This document shows, piece by piece, positions 10,779 through 22,983 of a DNA stretch of 34,222 nt (the first letter of the stretch is position 1; the number at the start of each line of letters is the position of its first letter). The notes beneath the pieces are model-generated. The model had not been told where the DNA came from. It made no database searches and saw only the letters and a program-made list of their open reading frames with translations. A program made the translations under genes and the position numbers. Origin of the DNA: Balneolaceae bacterium (GTDB lineage: Bacteria > Bacteroidota > Rhodothermia > Balneolales > Balneolaceae); contig JAFIFB010000125.1 in NCBI GenBank assembly GCA_020832285.1, forward strand, positions 1 to 34,222. Reading direction: 5' to 3'.

Positions 10779-13700
10779 ATGACCATATCGGAGTACATTA
10801 AAAACGTTAATCAGCGCTACAAAACAGGAATTTCAAGGGAACACAGCTACCGGGGGGATTTACAAAACCTGCTGGAAGCGATGCTGAAAAATGTACTGGT
10901 AACCAATGAACCGGCACGAATCGAGTGCGGTGCACCGGATTTTATTATTACCCATAAAGACGTTCCGATTGGATATATCGAGGCAAAAGATATCGGGGAA
11001 CCTCTGACCGGAAAAAAGCACAAAGAACAGTTTAGCCGGTATAAAGAATCGCTGGATAATCTTATTTTTACAGATTATCTCGATTTTCACTTTTACAGAG
11101 AAGGTGAATTTGTCGTATCTGTACGGCTGGCAGAGATTGCCGGGGATTCAGTCCGGGCGGTGCCAGAGAATGAAGAGAAGTTCCGGCAGATGATCAACGA
11201 TTTTGCCACACACTCCCTGCAGACGATCAAATCGGCCTCCAGGCTCTCCAAAATGATGGCGGCCAGAGCGCGGCTGCTCTCCGAAATTATTGAAAAGGCT
11301 TTGAATGAAGATGAAAGCAGGACAGGATCGGATACGTCACTTCGCTCCCAGCTTTCAGCCTTTCAGAACGTGCTAATGCACGACATTGACGAAAAAGAGT
11401 TTGCCGATATTTACGCTCAGACCATCGCCTACGGAATGTTTGCCGCCCGCTTACACGACAAGAACCTCGAAACCTTCTCCCGGTTTGAAGCTGCCCGTCT
11501 GATTCCCAAATCAAACCCATTTCTGCGAAAGCTGTTTCAGTACATTGCCGGGTACGACCTTGACGAGCGGATTGACTGGATTGTGGATGCCCTGGCCGAT
11601 ATTTTCCGCGCAACGGACGTAGACGGGCTGTTGAACAACTTTGGGAAATCAACACAACAGACCGACCCGATTATTCACTTCTATGAAACCTTCCTGGCCG
11701 AGTTCGATCCCAAATTGCGTAAAAAACGAGGGGTTTGGTACACCCCCGATCCGGTGGTGAATTTCATTATAAGAGCCGTAGATGATATTCTGAAAACAGA
11801 ATTTGGCCTGAAAGATGGCCTGGCCGACACCTCCAAAACAACTGTGAAGGTGAAAGTACCTACGCATGACAAGCGCCATAAAGATAATATGGTATTCGAA
11901 GAACGGGAAGTGCACAAAGTACAATTGCTTGACCCAGTCGCCGGAACCGGGACGTTCCTGGCAGAAGTCATCAAACAGATTTACCAAAAATTTGAAGGAC
12001 AGCAGGGCATCTGGCCTGATTATGTTGAGAACCACCTCATCCCCCGCCTGAACGGGTTTGAGATTTTGATGGCCAGTTATGCCATGACCCACCTGAAGCT
12101 GGATCTGCTCTTAAAAGAAACCGGCTACGACCGTGAAAGCACTCAGCGGTTCCGGGTGTATTTGACCAACTCGCTCGAAGAGCACCACCCCGATACCGGA
12201 ACTCTCTTTGCCGGATGGCTTAGTGACGAAGCCAATGAAGCCAACCACATCAAACGTGATACTCCTGTGATGGTGGTGTTTGGGAATCCGCCGTACAGTG
12301 GTGAAAGCCAGAACAAGGGAGAGTGGATTATGAACCTGATGGAAGATTACAAAAAAGAGCCGGGTGGAAAGGAAAAATTAAAAGAACGAAATCCCAAATG
12401 GATCAATGATGATTACGTGAAATTTATGCGCTTCGGGCAGCATTTTATAGAAAAAAATGGGGAAGGGGTTTTGGCATTTATTAATCCGCATGGATTTCTT
12501 GATAACCCAACATTTCGGGGAATGAGATGGAATCTGTTGAAAACATACGATAAAATTTACACGATTGATCTTCATGGAAACAGCAAGAAAAAAGAAACGG
12601 CTCCGGACGGTTCACCGGATGAAAATGTTTTTGATATTCAACAAGGCGTTTCCATTAATTTGTTTGTAAAAAATAAAAACAAGGCATCTCAGACAAATAA
12701 ACTGGGAGTTCTTTACCATTATGATCTATTTGGCAAGAGAAAATACAAATACAATTATTTAGAGAATGAAAGTTTATCCTCTATTGGATTTAAAAAAATC
12801 AACCCATTTAAGAGTTATTATTTATTTAAAGATATTGATGAAGATTTACTTCTTAAATATGAACATGGCATAGATCCTACGAGTTTGTTCCAAATAAATG
12901 TTATGGGCTTTCAAACCCATCGAGATGATTTTGCAATAAGTTTTGATAAAAAAGAAATAATAATTAGAGCAAATGATTTAAGGAATCAATTAATTAAAGA
13001 ACATGATCTTCAAAAAAAATATGCGATTAATGATAATCGAGATTGGAAGCTTGTGGAAGCAAGAAAGAAAATTCAGAATGATTCTGATTGGTTAAATAAA
13101 GTATCACTTTGTAACTATAGACCATTTGACAATAGGTACTGTTATTTCAGTGATGTTATGATGGATTACCCAAGAAGAGAATTGTTAGATCATGTACATG
13201 AGAAAGATAATATTATAATCGGAATAGGCAGACAAGGTCTTGCTGTTGGGGATATAGACTGGTGCTTAACAACAGTTTCTAAAAGACCAGTTGATGCAAA
13301 TATATTTCGTAGGGGTGGCATTAATCTATTCCCTTTATACAAATATGATGATACAAATCAAGTTGATCTCGATGGTATAATTTCTCGCAAACCCAACCTC
13401 GATTCAAAAATCGTCAAAAAAATTGCGACCGGACTTGGGTTGAGTTTCACACCCGAAAAACAGGACAAAGAAGGAACCTTTGCCCCGATCGACCTGCTCG
13501 ATTACATCTACGCTGTGCTGCACTCACCAACCTATCGGGAAACCTACAAAGAGTTTCTGAAAATTGATTTTCCGCGCGTTCCCTACCCTGACGACCCGGA
13601 ACAGTTCTGGAAACTTGTAGATCTGGGCAGCGATCTGCGGCAAATACATCTAATGGAGCACCCGGTTGTGAATGAGTTTATTACAACCTATCCAAAGGCT

Positions 13701-14039
13701 GGAAGTAATACCATAAGCAACCGTCTAACTAAAAATGATCCTGGCTTTATACCGTACGACAAAAACCAGGAAAACCACACCACACCTGGCGATCACAGCT
13801 ACCCCGGAGAAAAACTTGGCAAAATACAGATCAACGATGAGCAGTATTTCGGCAACGTCCCTCTGAAAGCCTGGGAGTTCTATATCGGTGGCTACCAACC
13901 GGCCGAAAAATGGCTCAAAGATCGCCGCGGCCGAACTCTAAGTATGGAAGAGATTCAGCACTACCAGAAGATTATTGTGGCACTGATGGAGACGGATAGG
14001 TTGATGAGGAAGATTGATGAGATCGAGATTGTGAAATAA
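10779..14039 (+). CDS. Single-chain restriction-modification enzyme, Type ISP-like without helicase (Type IIG-style)
   Basis: This 1086-residue protein should both cut and methylate DNA. The N-terminus has a PD-(D/E)xK nuclease core: D54 in APDFII and E68-A-K70 in GYIEAK. A helical region follows, then an N6-adenine methyltransferase: VWYTPDPVVNFIIRAVDDIL (about 319-338), SAM motif DPVAGTGTF (385-393) and catalytic NPPY (503-506). The C-terminal part (LLDYIYAVLHSPTYRETYKEFLKIDFPRVP, FWKLVDLGSDLR) matches what I know of the Type ISP (LlaBIII/LlaGI) specificity domain. The SF2 helicase of true Type ISP enzymes is absent. About codons 590-865 are much more AT-rich than both ends, suggesting an exchanged target-recognition domain. 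No separate specificity or antirestriction gene is adjacent. Confidence 0.85.
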   Translation: MTISEYIKNVNQRYKTGISREHSYRGDLQNLLEAMLKNVLVTNEPARIECGAPDFIITHKDVPIGYIEAKDIGEPLTGKKHKEQFSRYKESLDNLIFTDYLDFHFYREGEFVVSVRLAEIAGDSVRAVPENEEKFRQMINDFATHSLQTIKSASRLSKMMAARARLLSEIIEKALNEDESRTGSDTSLRSQLSAFQNVLMHDIDEKEFADIYAQTIAYGMFAARLHDKNLETFSRFEAARLIPKSNPFLRKLFQYIAGYDLDERIDWIVDALADIFRATDVDGLLNNFGKSTQQTDPIIHFYETFLAEFDPKLRKKRGVWYTPDPVVNFIIRAVDDILKTEFGLKDGLADTSKTTVKVKVPTHDKRHKDNMVFEEREVHKVQLLDPVAGTGTFLAEVIKQIYQKFEGQQGIWPDYVENHLIPRLNGFEILMASYAMTHLKLDLLLKETGYDRESTQRFRVYLTNSLEEHHPDTGTLFAGWLSDEANEANHIKRDTPVMVVFGNPPYSGESQNKGEWIMNLMEDYKKEPGGKEKLKERNPKWINDDYVKFMRFGQHFIEKNGEGVLAFINPHGFLDNPTFRGMRWNLLKTYDKIYTIDLHGNSKKKETAPDGSPDENVFDIQQGVSINLFVKNKNKASQTNKLGVLYHYDLFGKRKYKYNYLENESLSSIGFKKINPFKSYYLFKDIDEDLLLKYEHGIDPTSLFQINVMGFQTHRDDFAISFDKKEIIIRANDLRNQLIKEHDLQKKYAINDNRDWKLVEARKKIQNDSDWLNKVSLCNYRPFDNRYCYFSDVMMDYPRRELLDHVHEKDNIIIGIGRQGLAVGDIDWCLTTVSKRPVDANIFRRGGINLFPLYKYDDTNQVDLDGIISRKPNLDSKIVKKIATGLGLSFTPEKQDKEGTFAPIDLLDYIYAVLHSPTYRETYKEFLKIDFPRVPYPDDPEQFWKLVDLGSDLRQIHLMEHPVVNEFITTYPKAGSNTISNRLTKNDPGFIPYDKNQENHTTPGDHSYPGEKLGKIQINDEQYFGNVPLKAWEFYIGGYQPAEKWLKDRRGRTLSMEEIQHYQKIIVALMETDRLMRKIDEIEIVK

Positions 14040-14361: not shown

Positions 14362-16644
14362 TTACTCAGATAACCGTTTGGCAAGAGCCGCTTTTAAAGT
14401 CCAGTGTTTGTGCTGCTTACCGCGGATCATCACCACGTTAATATTATCTTTTTTGGCAACCCGAGCAGCAACAGATCCATACAATATTTTGGCAAATGTA
14501 CTCTGTTCTGAAATTCCAAAAAATACGGTATTAAACGATTCGACAGCCTCGTTTATCGCCAGCTCAATGTTGTTACTGACAAGCACTTTGGCCTCATATC
14601 CATCAGCAGGAATTCCAGCCTTTTCTGCAAGTGATGCGATCACCTCGCGGCCTTCTTCTTCAGGGTCAGTCATTTCTCCATCCTTCTGCTGAGATGGCCT
14701 TTGAACATTCATTAGAGTGAGTTTTTGGTTATCGAGCAGTGCAAACTCATAGGCGCGTTGTATGGCTTTCGGTGAGTGGGGCCCCGGCCCGGCAAGGGCT
14801 AAAACAGATCCCCGGTCTTCTCTCTTAAAGTTGACCAGAGTTACATCACACGGTGCTAATTTGATGATGGGATCCAGATTGGAACCGAAAATATAGTTAC
14901 GATGATAATCCTGTGGATTCCATCCAATCACGAGCTGGTCAGCCCCCTGCTGTTCGATATAGGCTAAAACCGATTTAAAGATACTTCGTCCGATAATCAC
15001 CCGGGTTTTCAGATCCACACCCAGTTCCGAACAGATCTCCCTTCCCACCTCCAGAAGCTCCCGTTGTTTCTCAATCTGTTCATATTCGAACTGTAAATTT
15101 TGTTCGAGCGAGGTTTGCACCGGTACTTTTATAATATTCAGTGCCAGCACCTGTGGCCTGGCCTCCCCGCGATGGTATTGGGCACTCGCAGCCGCCAGCC
15201 TTAGCAAGTCTGCCTGTGTTTTAGGATTCGCAACGGAAACAGCAACCCGGTAGAGTGCCTCTCCATCCTCATCCACAGGTTTGGTTTCTATGGACGATCT
15301 CACAATTGCATCTCCTACCAGGTTATCATCTGAAATATGTTTACTTGAGTAGAAAAAGTACCAGGCACATGCCAGAAAAATGATACCTATTCCAATCAGG
15401 ATAACGGCTACATCCATTTGCGATATTACAACGAAGGAGAGCAAAACTCCGAGAATAGGCAGTATCGGGAAGAGTATGGAAGGTATTTTAAAATCGGGTT
15501 TGTAGTATTCAGGCTGTGCCTTTCGAATGACGATGACCGCAACGTGAACCAGAGCATACGATATCAGAAAGCTGAAGCTCGCAACTTCTGCCAAGAGAGC
15601 TACAATCTGCTCAACCTGGAGGCCAAGGGCAACCAACAGAGCGGTGATACCGCCAGTAGCCAAAACGGCACGGTGCGGTGTGCGAAACTTCTTGTGTGTA
15701 GCATTCATCCAGTCGTTCACCTGTTTGTCGCGCCCCATGGCAAAAACTACCCGGGCTGCGGAGAGTACGGATGAATTAGCGCTGGATATCGCCGCAACGG
15801 CAGCGGCAAAAATGATGGCTACCACACCAACTGTACCCATGCTGATGAGTGCGACATCAGAAACGGGAACGAGTGAATCGGCAAGATTAGCATAAGGAAC
15901 CACACCTGTGGTAACAATCATGACCATGACATATAGAATCGTCACCAGCACAACAGATAAGATCATGGTTAGAGGGATGATTTTACCCGGATTTTTTATC
16001 TCCTCGGCAACGGTGGCAATAATCTCAAATCCCAAAAACGTGACGAATACGATTCCGGTTGTGGCCATAATACCGCTCGCACCCATCGGAGCGAATGGCT
16101 GGAGGTTGTCGAGATCAACATAAAAGTATCCAAATCCCAAAAAGGCGAGAATAATCAGCGTCAAAACACCGATGGTCCAGTTCTGGAATTTGCCAGACTC
16201 TTCAGTGCCCATATAATTTACCCCTACCAGGAAGGTTAAACCAATCAAACCAAAGAGCACGACCAGAAATCTGCCATCGAGAAACTCAATACCGCCAACG
16301 ATGTATTGTCCGAAACCGATCATGTAAAAGGCACTTGCAAACATCAGTCCGGTCCACATTCCCCAGCCCACAATGCTTCCCAGGAATCCGCCAAGGGCAC
16401 GGTTCACATAGTGATAGCTTCCGCCGGCGACCGGCATTCCGGTGGCAAGTTCTGAAAGGGAGATCGCTGCGAGAAGGGCTACAACTCCTGCAATGGCAAA
16501 GGCGAGTGAACTGGCAGGACCCGCATTGGCTGCTGCGACTCCCGGCAGGATAAAAATTCCGGCACCGATCATGGCGCCTGCTCCCAGCGACATCGCTTCA
16601 AGAAAACCTATGTTTCGGGCCAGCTCACTTTTTTCGGGGGCCAT
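14362..16644 (-). CDS. APC-superfamily permease fused to two universal stress protein domains
   Basis: The 760-residue protein is an amino-acid/polyamine/organocation transporter with a cytoplasmic tail. The membrane part (about 1-430) starts with the family signature GAGAMIGAGIFILPG (21-35) and contains about a dozen hydrophobic helices. The tail (about 455-755) has two UspA-type domains. The first ends VIGWNPQDYHRNYIFGSNLDPII...CDVTLV and the second ends FGISEQSTFAKILYGSVAARVAKKDNINVVMI; both have the conserved GS before the last helix. Usp domains bind ATP/AMP in many relatives and may gate transport in response to energy state. Substrate unknown, possibly amino acids. It starts at ATG 16644, faces away from the following cupin, and is not in an operon. 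Confidence 0.9.
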   Translation of the reverse strand: MAPEKSELARNIGFLEAMSLGAGAMIGAGIFILPGVAAANAGPASSLAFAIAGVVALLAAISLSELATGMPVAGGSYHYVNRALGGFLGSIVGWGMWTGLMFASAFYMIGFGQYIVGGIEFLDGRFLVVLFGLIGLTFLVGVNYMGTEESGKFQNWTIGVLTLIILAFLGFGYFYVDLDNLQPFAPMGASGIMATTGIVFVTFLGFEIIATVAEEIKNPGKIIPLTMILSVVLVTILYVMVMIVTTGVVPYANLADSLVPVSDVALISMGTVGVVAIIFAAAVAAISSANSSVLSAARVVFAMGRDKQVNDWMNATHKKFRTPHRAVLATGGITALLVALGLQVEQIVALLAEVASFSFLISYALVHVAVIVIRKAQPEYYKPDFKIPSILFPILPILGVLLSFVVISQMDVAVILIGIGIIFLACAWYFFYSSKHISDDNLVGDAIVRSSIETKPVDEDGEALYRVAVSVANPKTQADLLRLAAASAQYHRGEARPQVLALNIIKVPVQTSLEQNLQFEYEQIEKQRELLEVGREICSELGVDLKTRVIIGRSIFKSVLAYIEQQGADQLVIGWNPQDYHRNYIFGSNLDPIIKLAPCDVTLVNFKREDRGSVLALAGPGPHSPKAIQRAYEFALLDNQKLTLMNVQRPSQQKDGEMTDPEEEGREVIASLAEKAGIPADGYEAKVLVSNNIELAINEAVESFNTVFFGISEQSTFAKILYGSVAARVAKKDNINVVMIRGKQHKHWTLKAALAKRLSE

Positions 16645-19153: not shown

Positions 19154-19966
19154 ATGATGCCCAGTAATTCATACCGTTTTTATGCCGGGGAAGGCCCGGT
19201 TGTTGCTGTTGCACTCCATAGCGGTCATGTTGTTCGTAGCGATCTCAAGTCCCACTTCAATCTCAGTAATTCGGAACGGTTGCGAGAAGAAGATCCTCAT
19301 ACAGATATCCTCACAGCTATTGTCCCTGCGCGTATTGTTGTCCGCAAATCCCGGTTCGAAGTAGATCTGAACCGTGAACGCAGTTTAGCCGTTTACCGTA
19401 CCCCGGAGGATGCATGGGGCCTCAAAGTCTGGAAAGAAAAACCGGATGAAGAAGAGGTAGAGAAATCTCTGGCCATATATGACAAATTTTATGCAGATTC
19501 GAAGGTATTTCTCAAGGGTATTATCCTCAAGTATGGTTACGTTGTGGTTTTTGACATTCACTCCTATAACCATATGCGTGAGGGGCCGCATGCTGAGCCG
19601 GCCGATCCAGCTGCCAATCCCGATGTAAACCTGGGCACAGAAAATCTGAACAGGGATGTATGGGGGCAGGTTGTAGACGGGCTGGCTGAAGACCTTCGGT
19701 CGTTTGAATACCCGGGAGGTCAACTTATAGTGGGGGAAAATATCCGGTTCAAGGGTGGTCATTATTCACGCTGGATAGAGCAGCAATTCGGCGACCAGAG
19801 CTGTGCCATTGCAGTTGAGTTTAAAAAAATCTTTATGGATGAATGGACTCATGAATATGATCCGGTAAAAGTGAGTGCACTTTTCAATGCCCTGAATTAT
19901 GCCCTCCCGGCAGTGTTGATTCACAGTAACAATATTGCAGTAGAGCGTGCAGGAGTATTGAAATGA
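19154..19966 (+). CDS. N-formylglutamate amidohydrolase-family protein
   Basis: The 270-residue protein has the fold markers of the family: HSGH (22-25) in VVAVALHSGHVV, RFEVDLNR (67-74), DIHSYNH (134-140) and GGHYSRWIEQQFG (201-213). The His and Asp/Glu residues of these motifs would bind the catalytic Zn. Known members release formate from N-formylglutamate in histidine breakdown, but no hut genes are near. It is instead translationally coupled (ATGA overlap at 19963-19966) to the QEGLA peptidase and followed by an ATP-grasp ligase, which points to a different N-acyl-glutamate or glutamyl-peptide substrate. ATG 19154 and ATG 19157 are both possible starts. No signal peptide. Confidence 0.8.
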   Translation: MMPSNSYRFYAGEGPVVAVALHSGHVVRSDLKSHFNLSNSERLREEDPHTDILTAIVPARIVVRKSRFEVDLNRERSLAVYRTPEDAWGLKVWKEKPDEEEVEKSLAIYDKFYADSKVFLKGIILKYGYVVVFDIHSYNHMREGPHAEPADPAANPDVNLGTENLNRDVWGQVVDGLAEDLRSFEYPGGQLIVGENIRFKGGHYSRWIEQQFGDQSCAIAVEFKKIFMDEWTHEYDPVKVSALFNALNYALPAVLIHSNNIAVERAGVLK

Positions 19967-21894
19967 AAAAGTCCCAGGCTTCAAATAAACCTATTGAAGA
20001 GATAATCGCGGATGTCACTCAAAAGCTGAAGGAGGGGAAAGAGTTGCGAATGGAATTACCGGATGGCGGTTTGCTTCACTTTGATCGTCCACTTCCCTTT
20101 TTGGTGGTGTTTCGTGAGTCGGAGAATGAGGATAACAGGGCAGTTAGCCTGTTGGTACGCTCCCAGACCTCTTTTTTGATTGCTCCGGCCAGCAGCAAGC
20201 CGGCAAACCTGAAGGCACTCGTACATGCGATCGCCAAAACAATTTCCAAGAAAAGTGGTGCATTTTTGATCATTGAGCTTTGGGCCAAAAAATCCAAACC
20301 CAAATCCGGAGAGACTTCTCAGGCTGGTGATGGCGAATCTGCGGACGTATCAACGAAAGCAGAATCTGCGGCAGACTTTCACATACGGGCTCCGTCTAAA
20401 GTTTCCTATTCAAGTGTGGACTCACTCAAGAAAAATCTGAAGAATATCCGAATTGAATATAAAAATGCAACTGCAGAGATTGCCCTGGATGATCGCCACC
20501 CTCCGGGGCTTGAAAAATTGCTTGAAGCGGATGATCTCAAAGAACTGGGAGCCCTGCTGATCGGACTGGAGATCCGGCCGTTTTATATCAACCCTGAATC
20601 AGGTACTCCATATCCGCTTCTACTCAGAAAACTTGCCCGGGAGCTCTCTACTGCGCTGAAAAGGACATTCTTCGAATTCGTCAGGGTACAAACAAACCTG
20701 GAGGTTTCGCATTTTCATATGCTGGGACGCCGTATTATGACGCCTCCGGCCCGCGAAATAGACGCTAAACTGGCCAAAATCGACGACAGTTTCAGTTTTC
20801 TGCTGCTGCTGACACCCATAAATATTCAGGAAGCCTGGTTGTACTTCAAAGAAAATAATTACAGGAAAAAGCCTGCATTCCATTATCGGTTGATGTCGGA
20901 AGACCCGGAGATCCTCAAGCGAGAGCTCTACAATTTATCAATTGATCGCGTAGAAGACCCGACCCTGGAGTTTATGTTCAGGGAAAAAAGGAGCGAGCTC
21001 GACAAAATGCTGACCTTACTTACGGAGCGTGGAAAGCCCGAGTTCATGCCGGGAAGTATGCAGTATTACGGGCCGCTTGATGAATCGGTGACCAAACTTG
21101 CTGCAGAACTGTTGACGGCCATTCCCTCAAATTCTGATAGTAGTGAGAGCAGCATTATAATGCCGGAGGAATTTGCCGTAATGGCCCGAAAAGAGATCGA
21201 TCACTACCGCAGTCAATATGAGCACATTAATGCCGAGGTATGCGTGCAGGACGATATCGCCGGATTGCTCGTCACGAACGGGAATTTATATATAGGTACG
21301 GATGCCCGCATCTCAACTGTGAGGGCAGAGGCATTGATACAGCATGAAGTGGGTACCCATATTCTGACCTATTACAACGGCCGGGCCCAGCCACTCAAGC
21401 TGCTCTATTGCGGACTTCCCCGTTACGAAGAACTGCAGGAGGGCCTTGCGGTGCTAAGTGAATATCTTGTCGGCGGGCTAACGGCGAGCCGTCTTCGGCT
21501 TTTGGCTGCAAGGGTTATTACCGTTCAGGCGATTATGCGTGGTGCAGGCTTCGTCGAAACGTTTCATATTCTGCATGAAGATCACGGATTTGATTCCATG
21601 CAGGCATTCACTATTACGATGCGTGTATACCGCGGGGGAGGACTTACCAAAGATGCGATCTATCTGAAAGGCCTGATGCGTGTTCTTAAATGGCTGGAAG
21701 ATGGTAATGAACTTGAGCCACTTTTGATCGGGAAAATCCGTGAAGACTATGTGCCGCTCATTAATGAGCTGCTATACCGGCGCATGCTTCTGCCTGCACC
21801 ACTTAGTCCGCGCTACCTGGAATTTCCGGGAGTCAGGTCGAAACTTAAGCAGCTAAAAAAAGGATCATCCGTTTTAGACCTGCTGCAAGGATAA
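19963..21894 (+). CDS. QEGLA-motif metallopeptidase (DUF1704, MATCAP-like tyrosine/glutamate carboxypeptidase family)
   Basis: The 643-residue protein carries the zinc site HEVGTH (461-466) in EALIQHEVGTHILTYYNG and, about 30 residues on, YEELQEGLAVLSEYL with E493 as third ligand. These define the 'flavohemoglobin expression-modulating QEGLA motif' family, whose eukaryotic relatives (MATCAP) remove the C-terminal tyrosine of tubulin. Bacterial members have no established substrate. The first 130 residues form an extra domain (LRMELPDGGLLHFDRPLPFLVVFR) followed by a low-complexity linker (SKPKSGETSQAGDGESADVSTK, roughly 105-130). Cytoplasmic; no signal peptide. It overlaps the upstream amidohydrolase by 4 nt, and the ATP-grasp gene follows 42 nt downstream. 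Confidence 0.88.
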   Translation: MKKSQASNKPIEEIIADVTQKLKEGKELRMELPDGGLLHFDRPLPFLVVFRESENEDNRAVSLLVRSQTSFLIAPASSKPANLKALVHAIAKTISKKSGAFLIIELWAKKSKPKSGETSQAGDGESADVSTKAESAADFHIRAPSKVSYSSVDSLKKNLKNIRIEYKNATAEIALDDRHPPGLEKLLEADDLKELGALLIGLEIRPFYINPESGTPYPLLLRKLARELSTALKRTFFEFVRVQTNLEVSHFHMLGRRIMTPPAREIDAKLAKIDDSFSFLLLLTPINIQEAWLYFKENNYRKKPAFHYRLMSEDPEILKRELYNLSIDRVEDPTLEFMFREKRSELDKMLTLLTERGKPEFMPGSMQYYGPLDESVTKLAAELLTAIPSNSDSSESSIIMPEEFAVMARKEIDHYRSQYEHINAEVCVQDDIAGLLVTNGNLYIGTDARISTVRAEALIQHEVGTHILTYYNGRAQPLKLLYCGLPRYEELQEGLAVLSEYLVGGLTASRLRLLAARVITVQAIMRGAGFVETFHILHEDHGFDSMQAFTITMRVYRGGGLTKDAIYLKGLMRVLKWLEDGNELEPLLIGKIREDYVPLINELLYRRMLLPAPLSPRYLEFPGVRSKLKQLKKGSSVLDLLQG

Positions 21895-21936
21895 ATATTT
21901 ATAAAATAGATCAACAATTAAAAAACCGAGAGAGAA

Positions 21937-22983
21937 ATGAGAATCGCACTAATCATCAATGATATTGAAACTGAAAAATCAGTATATACGTCTGTTTACC
22001 TGGGGCTGAATATGCATAACCAGGGCCACGAAGTTTATTTTACCGGTGTCGGCGACCTGGTATACTATCCGGACGGCCATATGGGGGCAACAGCAAAAAG
22101 GGCTCCCGGTAATAAATACAAAACCACAGATACCTATTTACAGGCAATCAAAGGTGATAAGGCAATCGTGGAAAAAGTAACGGCGACCGATTTAGATGTG
22201 CTGCTGCTGCGCAACGATCCCGCCTCAGAATCCGTCGGTCGGGGATGGGCTAAAAACGCCGCTTTGATTTTCGGTCAGCTTGCCCTCAGGCATGGTGTGA
22301 TCGTCCTTAATGATCCCAACAGTCTGTCGGAAGCGGTTAACAAGATGTATTTCCAGCATTTTCCTGAATCCGTGCGGCCACGGACACTCATCACGCGAGA
22401 CCCGAAAGAGATCCATAAATTTCATGAAGAACAGGGTGGCAGTATGATCGTGAAACCGCTTCAGGGCTCCGGCGGTGCAGGTGTTTTCATGGTAAAAGAA
22501 GATGATGCGGTAAACCTGAACCAGATGATCGAGGCGATAAGCCGCGACGGATATGTAATTGCCCAGGAATATTTACCGAAAGCCACAGATGGTGATGTGC
22601 GGTTATTCGTGGTAAATGGTAAAGCGCTTAAATGGAAGGGGAAATACGCCGCGATCCGCCGTGTAAATAAAAACGAGGATATGCGCAGCAACATGTCGGC
22701 CGGCGGATCAGCCGAGAAGGTAAAAATAGATGATACGATGCTTGAAATCGTCGATATAATCCGGCCTAAACTTGTGCTTGACGGTATGTTCATGGTTGGG
22801 CTCGATATCGTAGGCGATAAGCTTATGGAGATTAATGTATTTAGTCCCGGAGGGCTGCAGGGTGCAAGTAAACTGGAAGGTGTGGATTTTTCAATCCCTG
22901 TAATCCGTGCGATCGAAAACAAGGTTCAGTATCGAAAAGAATACGCAGATCAATTCAACAATAAGCTCCTGGCTACGATTTAA
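21937..22983 (+). CDS. GshB/RimK-like ATP-grasp ligase
   Basis: The 348-residue protein joins an N-terminal pre-ATP-grasp Rossmann-like domain (MRIALIINDIETEKSVYTSV, LDVLLLRNDPASESV) to an ATP-grasp domain: GGSMIVKPLQGSGGAGVFMV (adenine/phosphate-binding Lys), IAQEYLPKATDGDVRLFVVNGKAL and GLDIVGDKLMEINVFSPGGLQ (Mg-binding Glu and Asn). The 'DGDVR' and 'EINV-SPGG' signatures are closest to glutathione synthetase GshB. No gamma-glutamylcysteine ligase is present, so the product is probably not glutathione itself but an amide or peptide bond on another carboxylate. It is third in the operon with an N-formylglutamate amidohydrolase-like enzyme and a carboxypeptidase-type enzyme. A hairpin (22992-23013) lies after the stop. 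Confidence 0.85.
   Translation: MRIALIINDIETEKSVYTSVYLGLNMHNQGHEVYFTGVGDLVYYPDGHMGATAKRAPGNKYKTTDTYLQAIKGDKAIVEKVTATDLDVLLLRNDPASESVGRGWAKNAALIFGQLALRHGVIVLNDPNSLSEAVNKMYFQHFPESVRPRTLITRDPKEIHKFHEEQGGSMIVKPLQGSGGAGVFMVKEDDAVNLNQMIEAISRDGYVIAQEYLPKATDGDVRLFVVNGKALKWKGKYAAIRRVNKNEDMRSNMSAGGSAEKVKIDDTMLEIVDIIRPKLVLDGMFMVGLDIVGDKLMEINVFSPGGLQGASKLEGVDFSIPVIRAIENKVQYRKEYADQFNNKLLATI

Follow-up and report, generated by a model that had tools for sequence, protein, structure and literature searches.

A conserved trio of FGase-family, MATCAP-family and ATP-grasp genes in bacteria as a candidate module for reversible carboxyl modification

A ligase encoded beside two hydrolases

In the window studied here, a stretch of 34,222 nucleotides that forms one contig (JAFIFB010000125.1) of the 5.3-Mb genome of a Balneolaceae bacterium in 130 contigs (GCA_020832285.1), we found a trio of closely packed forward-strand genes for an N-formylglutamate amidohydrolase (FGase)-family protein, a QEGLA protein with a metallopeptidase domain of the MATCAP family and a GshB-like ATP-grasp ligase. 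We tentatively read the trio as a mobile cytosolic module that would reversibly modify a carboxyl group, with the ligase set against the two hydrolases, and that would be used upon osmotic change. We build this reading on the gene neighborhood, gene fusions, conserved residues, predicted folds and a degenerate domain within the QEGLA protein.

The FGase gene (19154-19966, +; 270 aa) overlaps the QEGLA gene (19963-21894, +; 643 aa) by 4 nt, and 42 nt separate the latter from the ligase gene (21937-22983, +; 348 aa), a layout that the first-pass annotation of this DNA had given and that the open reading frames (ORFs) bear out. The families which it had named also stand, with matches to PF05013 for the FGase (77.1 bits; Pfam cut-off 28.9), PF08014 for the QEGLA protein (294.3 bits; cut-off 27) and PF02955 (GSH-S_ATP) for the ligase (176.7 bits; cut-off 23). 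As judged by eye, none of the three N-termini bears a signal peptide; hence, the module is probably cytosolic. This analysis adds to that annotation a degenerate FGase domain, fusions of FGase with MATCAP, a link to expression at low salinity and, elsewhere in this genome, three more ligase loci; the first three of these are new.

A MATCAP metallopeptidase domain joined to a degenerate FGase domain

The MATCAP domain spans residues 295-629 of the QEGLA protein (20845-21849, +) and is recognized both by PF08014 and by its likeness to human MATCAP. Since the protein scores 324 bits against the QEGLA hypothetical equivalog TIGR02421, narrowly under the cut-off of 338.65, we claim it as a member of PF08014 only. 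Its AF2 model (pLDDT 89) was compared with known structures by Foldseek and VIA-align, and the domain superposes on human MATCAP (7z6s) with a Z of 24.5 over 291 residues at 20% identity (VIA-align), while a profile of the domain matches 7z5g with an E of 7e-10. The HEVGTH motif (residues 461-466; 21343-21360, +), predicted to be zinc-binding and catalytic, aligns with HEIGTH of human MATCAP, and in the QEGLA motif (residues 492-496; 21436-21450, +) E493 aligns with a glutamate of the human EEG motif. Both motifs had been pointed out in the first-pass annotation, and H461, E462, H466, Q492, E493 and G494 are each found in 52/52 aligned QEGLA rows, giving HExxxH plus a downstream glutamate throughout. 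Further positions that align with human MATCAP residues are R554, D564 and Y567 (52/52 rows each), K563 (51 rows) and R557 (50 rows). Human MATCAP is reported to be a carboxypeptidase; in its family, mutating the glutamates E281 and E316 strongly lowers activity, and TMCP1 takes off a C-terminal Tyr, Phe or Ala that follows glutamate (PMC10499314). In the literature searched, we found no reported substrate for MATCAP (QEGLA) proteins of bacteria, and "flavohemoglobin expression-modulating", the name under which databases list them, gives no lead on their role.

Pfam assigns nothing to residues 1-294 of the QEGLA protein. We found that residues 33-244 (20059-20694, +) constitute a degenerate (pseudo-) FGase domain: in hhalign, residues 47-242 align to residues 78-261 of the FGase (probability 93.5, E 2.4e-7), the same kind of profile comparison yielding no match between the C-terminal part and the FGase alignment, and the modeled N-terminal domain superposes on the FGase 2q7s with a Z of 14.8 over 181 residues at an rmsd of 3.0 (VIA-align, AF2 model). 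The position of FGase H136 is occupied by an aromatic residue (W, F or Y) at QEGLA residue 107 in 52/52 rows, tryptophan in 48 of them, and the QEGLA alignment offers no equivalent of the FGase part that contains H22 and E45-D47. E105 and R51 are invariant, and E203 is seen in 38/52 rows. We infer that this domain is non-catalytic and has been retained for recognition or docking. It has presumably also lost its zinc.

The FGase-family protein and the ATP-grasp ligase

In the stand-alone FGase, H22, E45, E46, D47, H136 and E222 are each present in 43/43 aligned rows and presumably comprise its zinc-binding residues. Searches against PDB sequences returned no match, either for the single protein at an E of 1 or for its profile at an E of 0.1. 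In Foldseek, the AF2 model (pLDDT 95) has the FGase 2q7s as its top match (E 7.1e-14), followed by 2odf and then by carboxypeptidase A-type chains. We predict that it is an active zinc amidohydrolase of the FGase family. Identity as the N-formylglutamate deformylase HutG was discarded because it scores 33.2 bits against TIGR02017, far under the cut-off of 278.75.

The ligase belongs to the PRK12458 subfamily (NF009110, 439.7 bits; cut-off 408), and falls under the cut-offs of both glutathione-synthase equivalogs (TIGR01380, 198.6 against 299.05; NF003573/PRK05246, 213.3 against 272). Thus, the claim of the first-pass annotation that the textbook roles of both enzymes misfit holds on these scores and on the HutG score, and the scores under both cut-offs speak against an ordinary glutathione synthetase, which that annotation had named in advance as an outcome that would overturn its proposal. 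K136, K173, D220, R222, R250, N252, D290, E298 and N300 are present in 46/46 rows (one per locus); we take these to be the residues expected of an ATP-grasp enzyme and presume their roles to be the usual ones. The ligase is clearly akin to Escherichia coli GshB, with R92 sitting where the latter has R86. Opposite SPTCIRE of E. coli GshB, a stretch which we read, from this one reference sequence, as family-defining, the window ligase has SPGG; P304 and G305 are found in 46/46 rows and G306 in 42/46. A second ligase type, which accompanies other architectures of the system (see below), likewise shows SPGG or near variants (SPGA, TPGG and APGG across the two types) opposite E. coli SPTC. Of this second type, the three ligases scanned (L116, L017 and L021) all exceed the PRK05246 cut-off (279-292 against 272) and none that of TIGR01380; these are nearer to GshB than the window type is.

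Given that their putative active-site residues are invariant in the aligned relatives, all three enzymes look active. The proposal of the first-pass annotation that one enzyme makes and two undo an amide is consistent with this; the enzymes may be antagonists, and the glutamyl or tyrosyl substrate that it suggested is a conjecture.

Conservation, distribution and architectures

To the 233 relatives of the QEGLA protein from a scan of genome_contigs, of which the best 80 were used (28 of them from Pontibacter), we applied the criterion that FGase and ligase genes both lie no more than ~5 kb away from the QEGLA gene, whichever the strand. Balneolaceae bins supply the closest of these 80 loci (80-82% identity). 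Both partners are present in 73/80 relatives (45/52 minus Pontibacter), which answers affirmatively the test of conservation outside this genome that had been set beforehand, and the ligase is present in 78/80; one of the misses (L073) leaves its contig inside the ligase. The rows of the tree carry 15 phylum labels, taken from the record titles of genomes and bins, nine of which are Bacteroidota, Balneolota, Poribacteria, Chloroflexota, Nitrospirota, Calditrichota, Acidobacteriota, Actinomycetota and Planctomycetota. As the neighbors are kept across phyla, the trio is not a chance assemblage. The usual order is FGase-QEGLA-ligase, rearranged in some loci (L086, L088, L091 and L102), and the trio is found in unchanged order on the three rhizobial plasmids examined. 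In Sinorhizobium meliloti 2011, pSymB bears the QEGLA and ligase genes, and the annotated pSymB of strain ml28 has the full trio. For the residue alignments, 51 of the 80 loci were used for QEGLA, 42 for FGase and 45 for the ligase, omitting most Pontibacter loci as near-duplicates along with cut or badly called genes; the simple ORF caller picks spurious frames in G+C-rich loci, and some FGases missed at first were recovered in the neighborhood count. An apparent ligase-MATCAP fusion in L028 was discarded as an artefact of this caller lying in another frame, as derived by hand from the coordinates.

Similarity to the long protein had selected the best 80, so we added two samples with less bias. 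In the phylum of the window, PF08014 is found in 15/296 genomes (the window's included), with both partners at 12/15 places. In Pseudomonadota, the phylum of the alphaproteobacterial relative L106, it is found in 47/398 genomes, and of the 53 places, 51 were read (all except G571 and G444:C132): both partners occur at 12, the ligase only at 3 and neither at 36, of which 35 were classed as the short type of QEGLA; at two of these 35 (L152 and L169), a match to ATP-grasp that is weaker lies no more than ~5 kb away. The patchy distribution, together with a tree that mixes phylum labels in places, suggests, and does not prove, transfer. The protein distances of the three trio members over 38 loci are correlated with a rho of 0.78-0.85 (the highest of 500 shuffles being 0.49), to which shared species history contributes.

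We distinguished four architectures. The first is that of the window, with FGase, long QEGLA and ligase genes. The second combines an FGase and a short QEGLA with the second ligase type, in the window's phylum (L017-L019 and L024), at loci which share neighbors with the Flavobacteriaceae loci L103-L105, where a long QEGLA occurs together with ligases of both types. In the third, a complete FGase is fused to MATCAP and accompanied by the second ligase type (Photobacterium L116 and L117; L020 from the window's phylum; Pseudomonadota L184, L187-L190 and L194). The fourth is a short-type QEGLA gene with neither partner. On Pseudoalteromonas plasmids (L118 and L119), a solitary short QEGLA gene lies near a DUF3081 gene, and the stretch covered contains neither a ligase nor an FGase. 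Three trio loci (L083, L084 and L087) carry two or three PRK12458-like ligases each, as if for serial ligations.

Among the small ORFs within 1.5 kb of the trio loci, no broadly conserved candidate substrate emerged in the 12 clusters shown, which by eye are, except for one small protein, trio-gene ends or stretches antisense to or inside neighbors; a dedicated small protein substrate was discarded on this ground. Four Pseudomonadota loci (L183, L192, L197 and L199) have an acidic protein of ~90-120 aa upstream of the trio, with a signal-peptide-like start by eye, which is a possible partner.

Low-salinity expression and transporter neighbors

In Photobacterium damselae RM-71, a gene labeled "Glutathione synthase GshB" (A0J47_RS17020) is reported to be 38.4-fold and a QEGLA gene (A0J47_RS17025) 27.5-fold up in 1% versus 3% NaCl, along with a 52-fold rise of RimK; the authors count GshB among the top upregulated functions and discuss it as glutathione synthetase (PMC10308900). 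Since two other Photobacterium records (L116 and L117) have the ligase followed by the FGase-MATCAP fusion, RS17020 and RS17025 most likely constitute the trio module. Transcriptome genes named "glutathione synthetase GshB" may thus belong to this module, probably so in the P. damselae response. In its main text, a second salinity data set (PMC8775919) does not mention the trio genes.

We also compared the neighbors within 10 kb of the trio in 50 genomes with the expectation from whole-genome copy numbers, the genomes with hits being compiled by hand; these 50 exclude genomes with the fused type, the short form or solitary genes, and all Pontibacter but one. MscS channels were found in 9 genomes (1.6 expected), SLC12-like permeases, by which we mean kin of the L064 protein, in 6 (0.19 expected) and CorA in 5 (0.33 expected); G424 was not counted for MscS, as its MscS adjoins a lone long QEGLA gene. 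Counts close to the trio (0-3 kb) and further off (4-10 kb) over 91 non-Pontibacter loci are 7/9 for MscS, 6/3 for SLC12-like, 6/0 for CorA, 5/0 for YihY, 9/0 for the dicarboxylate symporter and 11/4 for ABC transporters; these were not used as evidence, and whole-genome copy numbers took their place, because transporter clusters span both zones. As the families were chosen post hoc, the enrichment, which is weak once relatives are collapsed, is a lead and not proof. In nine loci (L017-L019, L021, L022, L024 and L103-L105), the second ligase type has a sodium:dicarboxylate symporter gene immediately upstream, with PF00375 matched in the one protein scanned (L024).

Proposed mechanism and alternative explanations

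By analogy with RimK/RimB and the rlo operon (see below), and also with the tubulin tyrosination cycle, we propose a cycle in which a tag is put on and taken off, with MATCAP as the remover. The ATP-grasp ligase would turn a carboxylate into an acyl phosphate and join it to an amine, probably that of an amino acid; the MATCAP enzyme, acting as a zinc carboxypeptidase, would take the terminal residue back off; and the FGase-fold enzyme would cleave the same amide or the following one. Without being catalytic itself, the pseudo-FGase domain of the QEGLA protein may serve recognition or docking; elsewhere, its place is taken by the complete FGase fused to MATCAP. This fusion in other genomes makes a common substrate of the two hydrolases probable. 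Shifts in salinity or osmotic pressure, chiefly downwards, would call the module into use.

Several points weigh against this reading. At 35/51 Pseudomonadota places, a short-type QEGLA stands without either partner; therefore, MATCAP can work without the ligase. PF08014 is present in just 5/92 genomes of the window's family, and the system is therefore dispensable. No substrate gene lies beside the trio in the form of a broadly conserved small ORF, and the ligase and the hydrolases could be successive steps. The expression data cover a single species and a broad response of 1,808 genes (PMC10308900), and RS17020 and RS17025 were assigned from their label, their consecutive locus tags and the gene order in the two other records of Photobacterium rather than from sequence. 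When related genomes are collapsed (Poribacteria as one unit and the Pseudomonadota G368, G424, G444 and G504 as one), the neighbor counts fall to 5 for MscS, 3 for SLC12-like and 2 for CorA of 44 units (P of 0.02, 0.0009 and 0.04) for families picked after viewing the loci. MscS is no commoner near the trio than further off, and the SLC12-like label is loose, as the L064 protein is an amino-acid permease (PF00324) with an SLC12 match of 22 bits against a cut-off of 27.

A linear pathway to a small peptide-like metabolite, in which the ligase builds and the FGase and MATCAP trim or salvage, with no protein tag and no opposition, is doubtful but a serious contender. It would sit well with the want of a dedicated protein substrate encoded nearby, with the multiple ligases of L083, L084 and L087, as expected of successive ligations, and with the symporter beside the second ligase type in nine loci (three of them from Flavobacteriaceae; one of the nine Pfam-checked). 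However, a biosynthetic pathway would be oddly equipped with two hydrolases, just one ligase and neither a modifying nor an export enzyme, and the MATCAP relatives of known activity target protein carboxyl ends (PMC10499314).

A more specific form of the reversible-modification reading, which we regard as unlikely, is that of a bacterial counterpart of the tubulin code, where a GshB-branch ligase would add one amino acid to the C-terminus of a cytosolic protein or peptide, a MATCAP carboxypeptidase and its FGase-fold partner would remove it, and the cycle would act as a switch in adapting to a drop in salinity. If true, the eukaryotic MATCAP enzymes would descend from, or share an origin with, bacterial tag-removing enzymes.

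It is improbable that the trio caps and trims the poly-alpha-glutamate tail made by RimK on S6, or free polyglutamate. This explanation takes in the 52-fold rise of RimK that accompanies the induction of the GshB and QEGLA genes at low salinity (PMC10308900), the rimB-rimK-AstE/AspA locus of the window's genome (see below) and the action of human MATCAP-family enzymes on glutamate-rich tails (PMC10499314). However, RimK is over its curated cut-off in 23/50 trio genomes (28/50 at ~200 bits), and in 20/20 of the genomes entered from the window's family that have no PF08014. RimK is therefore neither required by the trio nor specific to it, and its polyglutamate was tested, and not supported, as a universal substrate.

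Very little likelihood attaches to ordinary synthesis of glutathione, or of a thiol resembling it, in which the hydrolases would be the degrading enzymes. Here, the NCBIfam name of the PRK12458 subfamily, "glutathione synthetase", the kinship to E. coli GshB including R92 at the place of R86, and the PRK05246 scores of the second ligase type (3/3 over the cut-off, though under TIGR01380) are set against the scores of the window ligase under both equivalog cut-offs, the SPGG or similar stretch in place of SPTCIRE in both ligase types, and partner genes that are often missing, with PF04262 in 1/50 and PF04107 in 25/51 trio genomes. The first-pass annotation had remarked that no gamma-glutamylcysteine ligase is nearby. 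PF04262 has no match in the window's genome (PF08886 was not searched), and PF04107 matches there only in two of its other ligase loci, one with RimK-like, GCS2, FGase and C39 genes and one with CBS domains beside an AstE/AspA gene. On the curated cut-offs, the SPGG stretch and the missing partner genes, glutathione synthesis was discarded.

It is just as implausible that these are unrelated genes of peptide or histidine catabolism made neighbors by coincidence, as the derivation of the FGase name from N-formylglutamate hydrolysis and the aromatic amino acid lyase gene near a second FGase in this genome are countered by the HutG score (33.2 against 278.75), the neighborhood kept over phyla and the fusions.

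Related systems and sister loci in the same genome

Ligase-peptidase pairing as a kind is already known. Iyer et al. (2009) reportedly surveyed amidoligase-peptidase neighborhoods, and as that survey may have included the neighborhood of this trio, we claim no priority for the gene association. We found no study of the trio operon among the literature matches listed. Tubulin tyrosine ligase (TTL) is an ATP-grasp ligase that opposes MATCAP. The tubulin tyrosination cycle thus resembles the trio in setting a ligase against a MATCAP-family carboxypeptidase (PMC10499314, PMC12393276), and the fold of the trio FGase is also akin to carboxypeptidase A; in contrast, the trio has no tubulin, its MATCAP is 20% identical and its ligase lies in the GshB branch. 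RimK and RimB likewise combine an ATP-grasp ligase with a protease that undoes its product, RimB removing the glutamates added by RimK (PMC11957791), and share the patchy distribution (PMC11957791, PMC12239564). They differ in pairing a retropepsin with RimK, where the trio has a MATCAP metallopeptidase and a GshB-like ligase; the trio ligase scores 52.7 bits against the RimK model NF007764 (cut-off 331) and no retropepsin is encoded in the trio, which is thus outside RimBK. The rlo operon of Pseudomonas aeruginosa also joins an ATP-grasp enzyme to a peptidase and is tied to hypo-osmotic tolerance; deletion of its ATP-grasp gene restores salt-free growth of a peptidase triple mutant. It differs in that its retropepsins are secreted and that it includes a membrane protein with an inactive transglutaminase, and it has no MATCAP or FGase (PMC12239564).

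Three other ligase loci of the window's genome are related in kind. On its contig 42 (7701-11818, -; L110), a cluster of a C39-like peptidase, a RLAN/RimK-like ATP-grasp ligase, GCS2 and an FGase resembles the trio in uniting ligase, FGase and peptidase, and differs from it in having GCS2 and a C39-like peptidase and no MATCAP. About 0.2 kb past this cluster, an aromatic amino acid lyase gene (PF00221; HutH-like by eye) starts on the opposite strand. On contig 107 (5127-7446, -; L201), rimB-rimK adjoins a gene for an AstE/AspA-type deacylase, and on contig 75 (4109-8635, -; L111), an AstE/AspA-type gene lies beside two GCS2-like proteins with CBS domains, an unusual fusion. Presuming that AstE/AspA enzymes are kin to the M14 peptidases, we take each of the three loci to pair an amide ligase with an M14-like hydrolase, with a further peptidase in two of the three. 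With a conserved ligase-plus-hydrolase module and a lead from low salt, the question of QEGLA function becomes testable in ordinary strains.

Other observations in the window

Scans for promoters (6 against 6.0 in shuffled sequence) and terminators (5 against 4.6) gave no excess. An anti-phage defense system was discarded, as 0/3 trio proteins match PADLOC defense models at an E of 0.001, and so was phage carriage of the QEGLA protein, for which tblastn against 50,697 phage records gave no match. Upstream in the window, a Type ISP-like restriction-modification enzyme (PF18135 plus N6 methylase matches) is encoded at 10779-14039 (+). An amino-acid permease fused to universal stress protein (Usp) domains is encoded at 14362-16644 (-), 2.5 kb upstream of the trio on the opposite strand.

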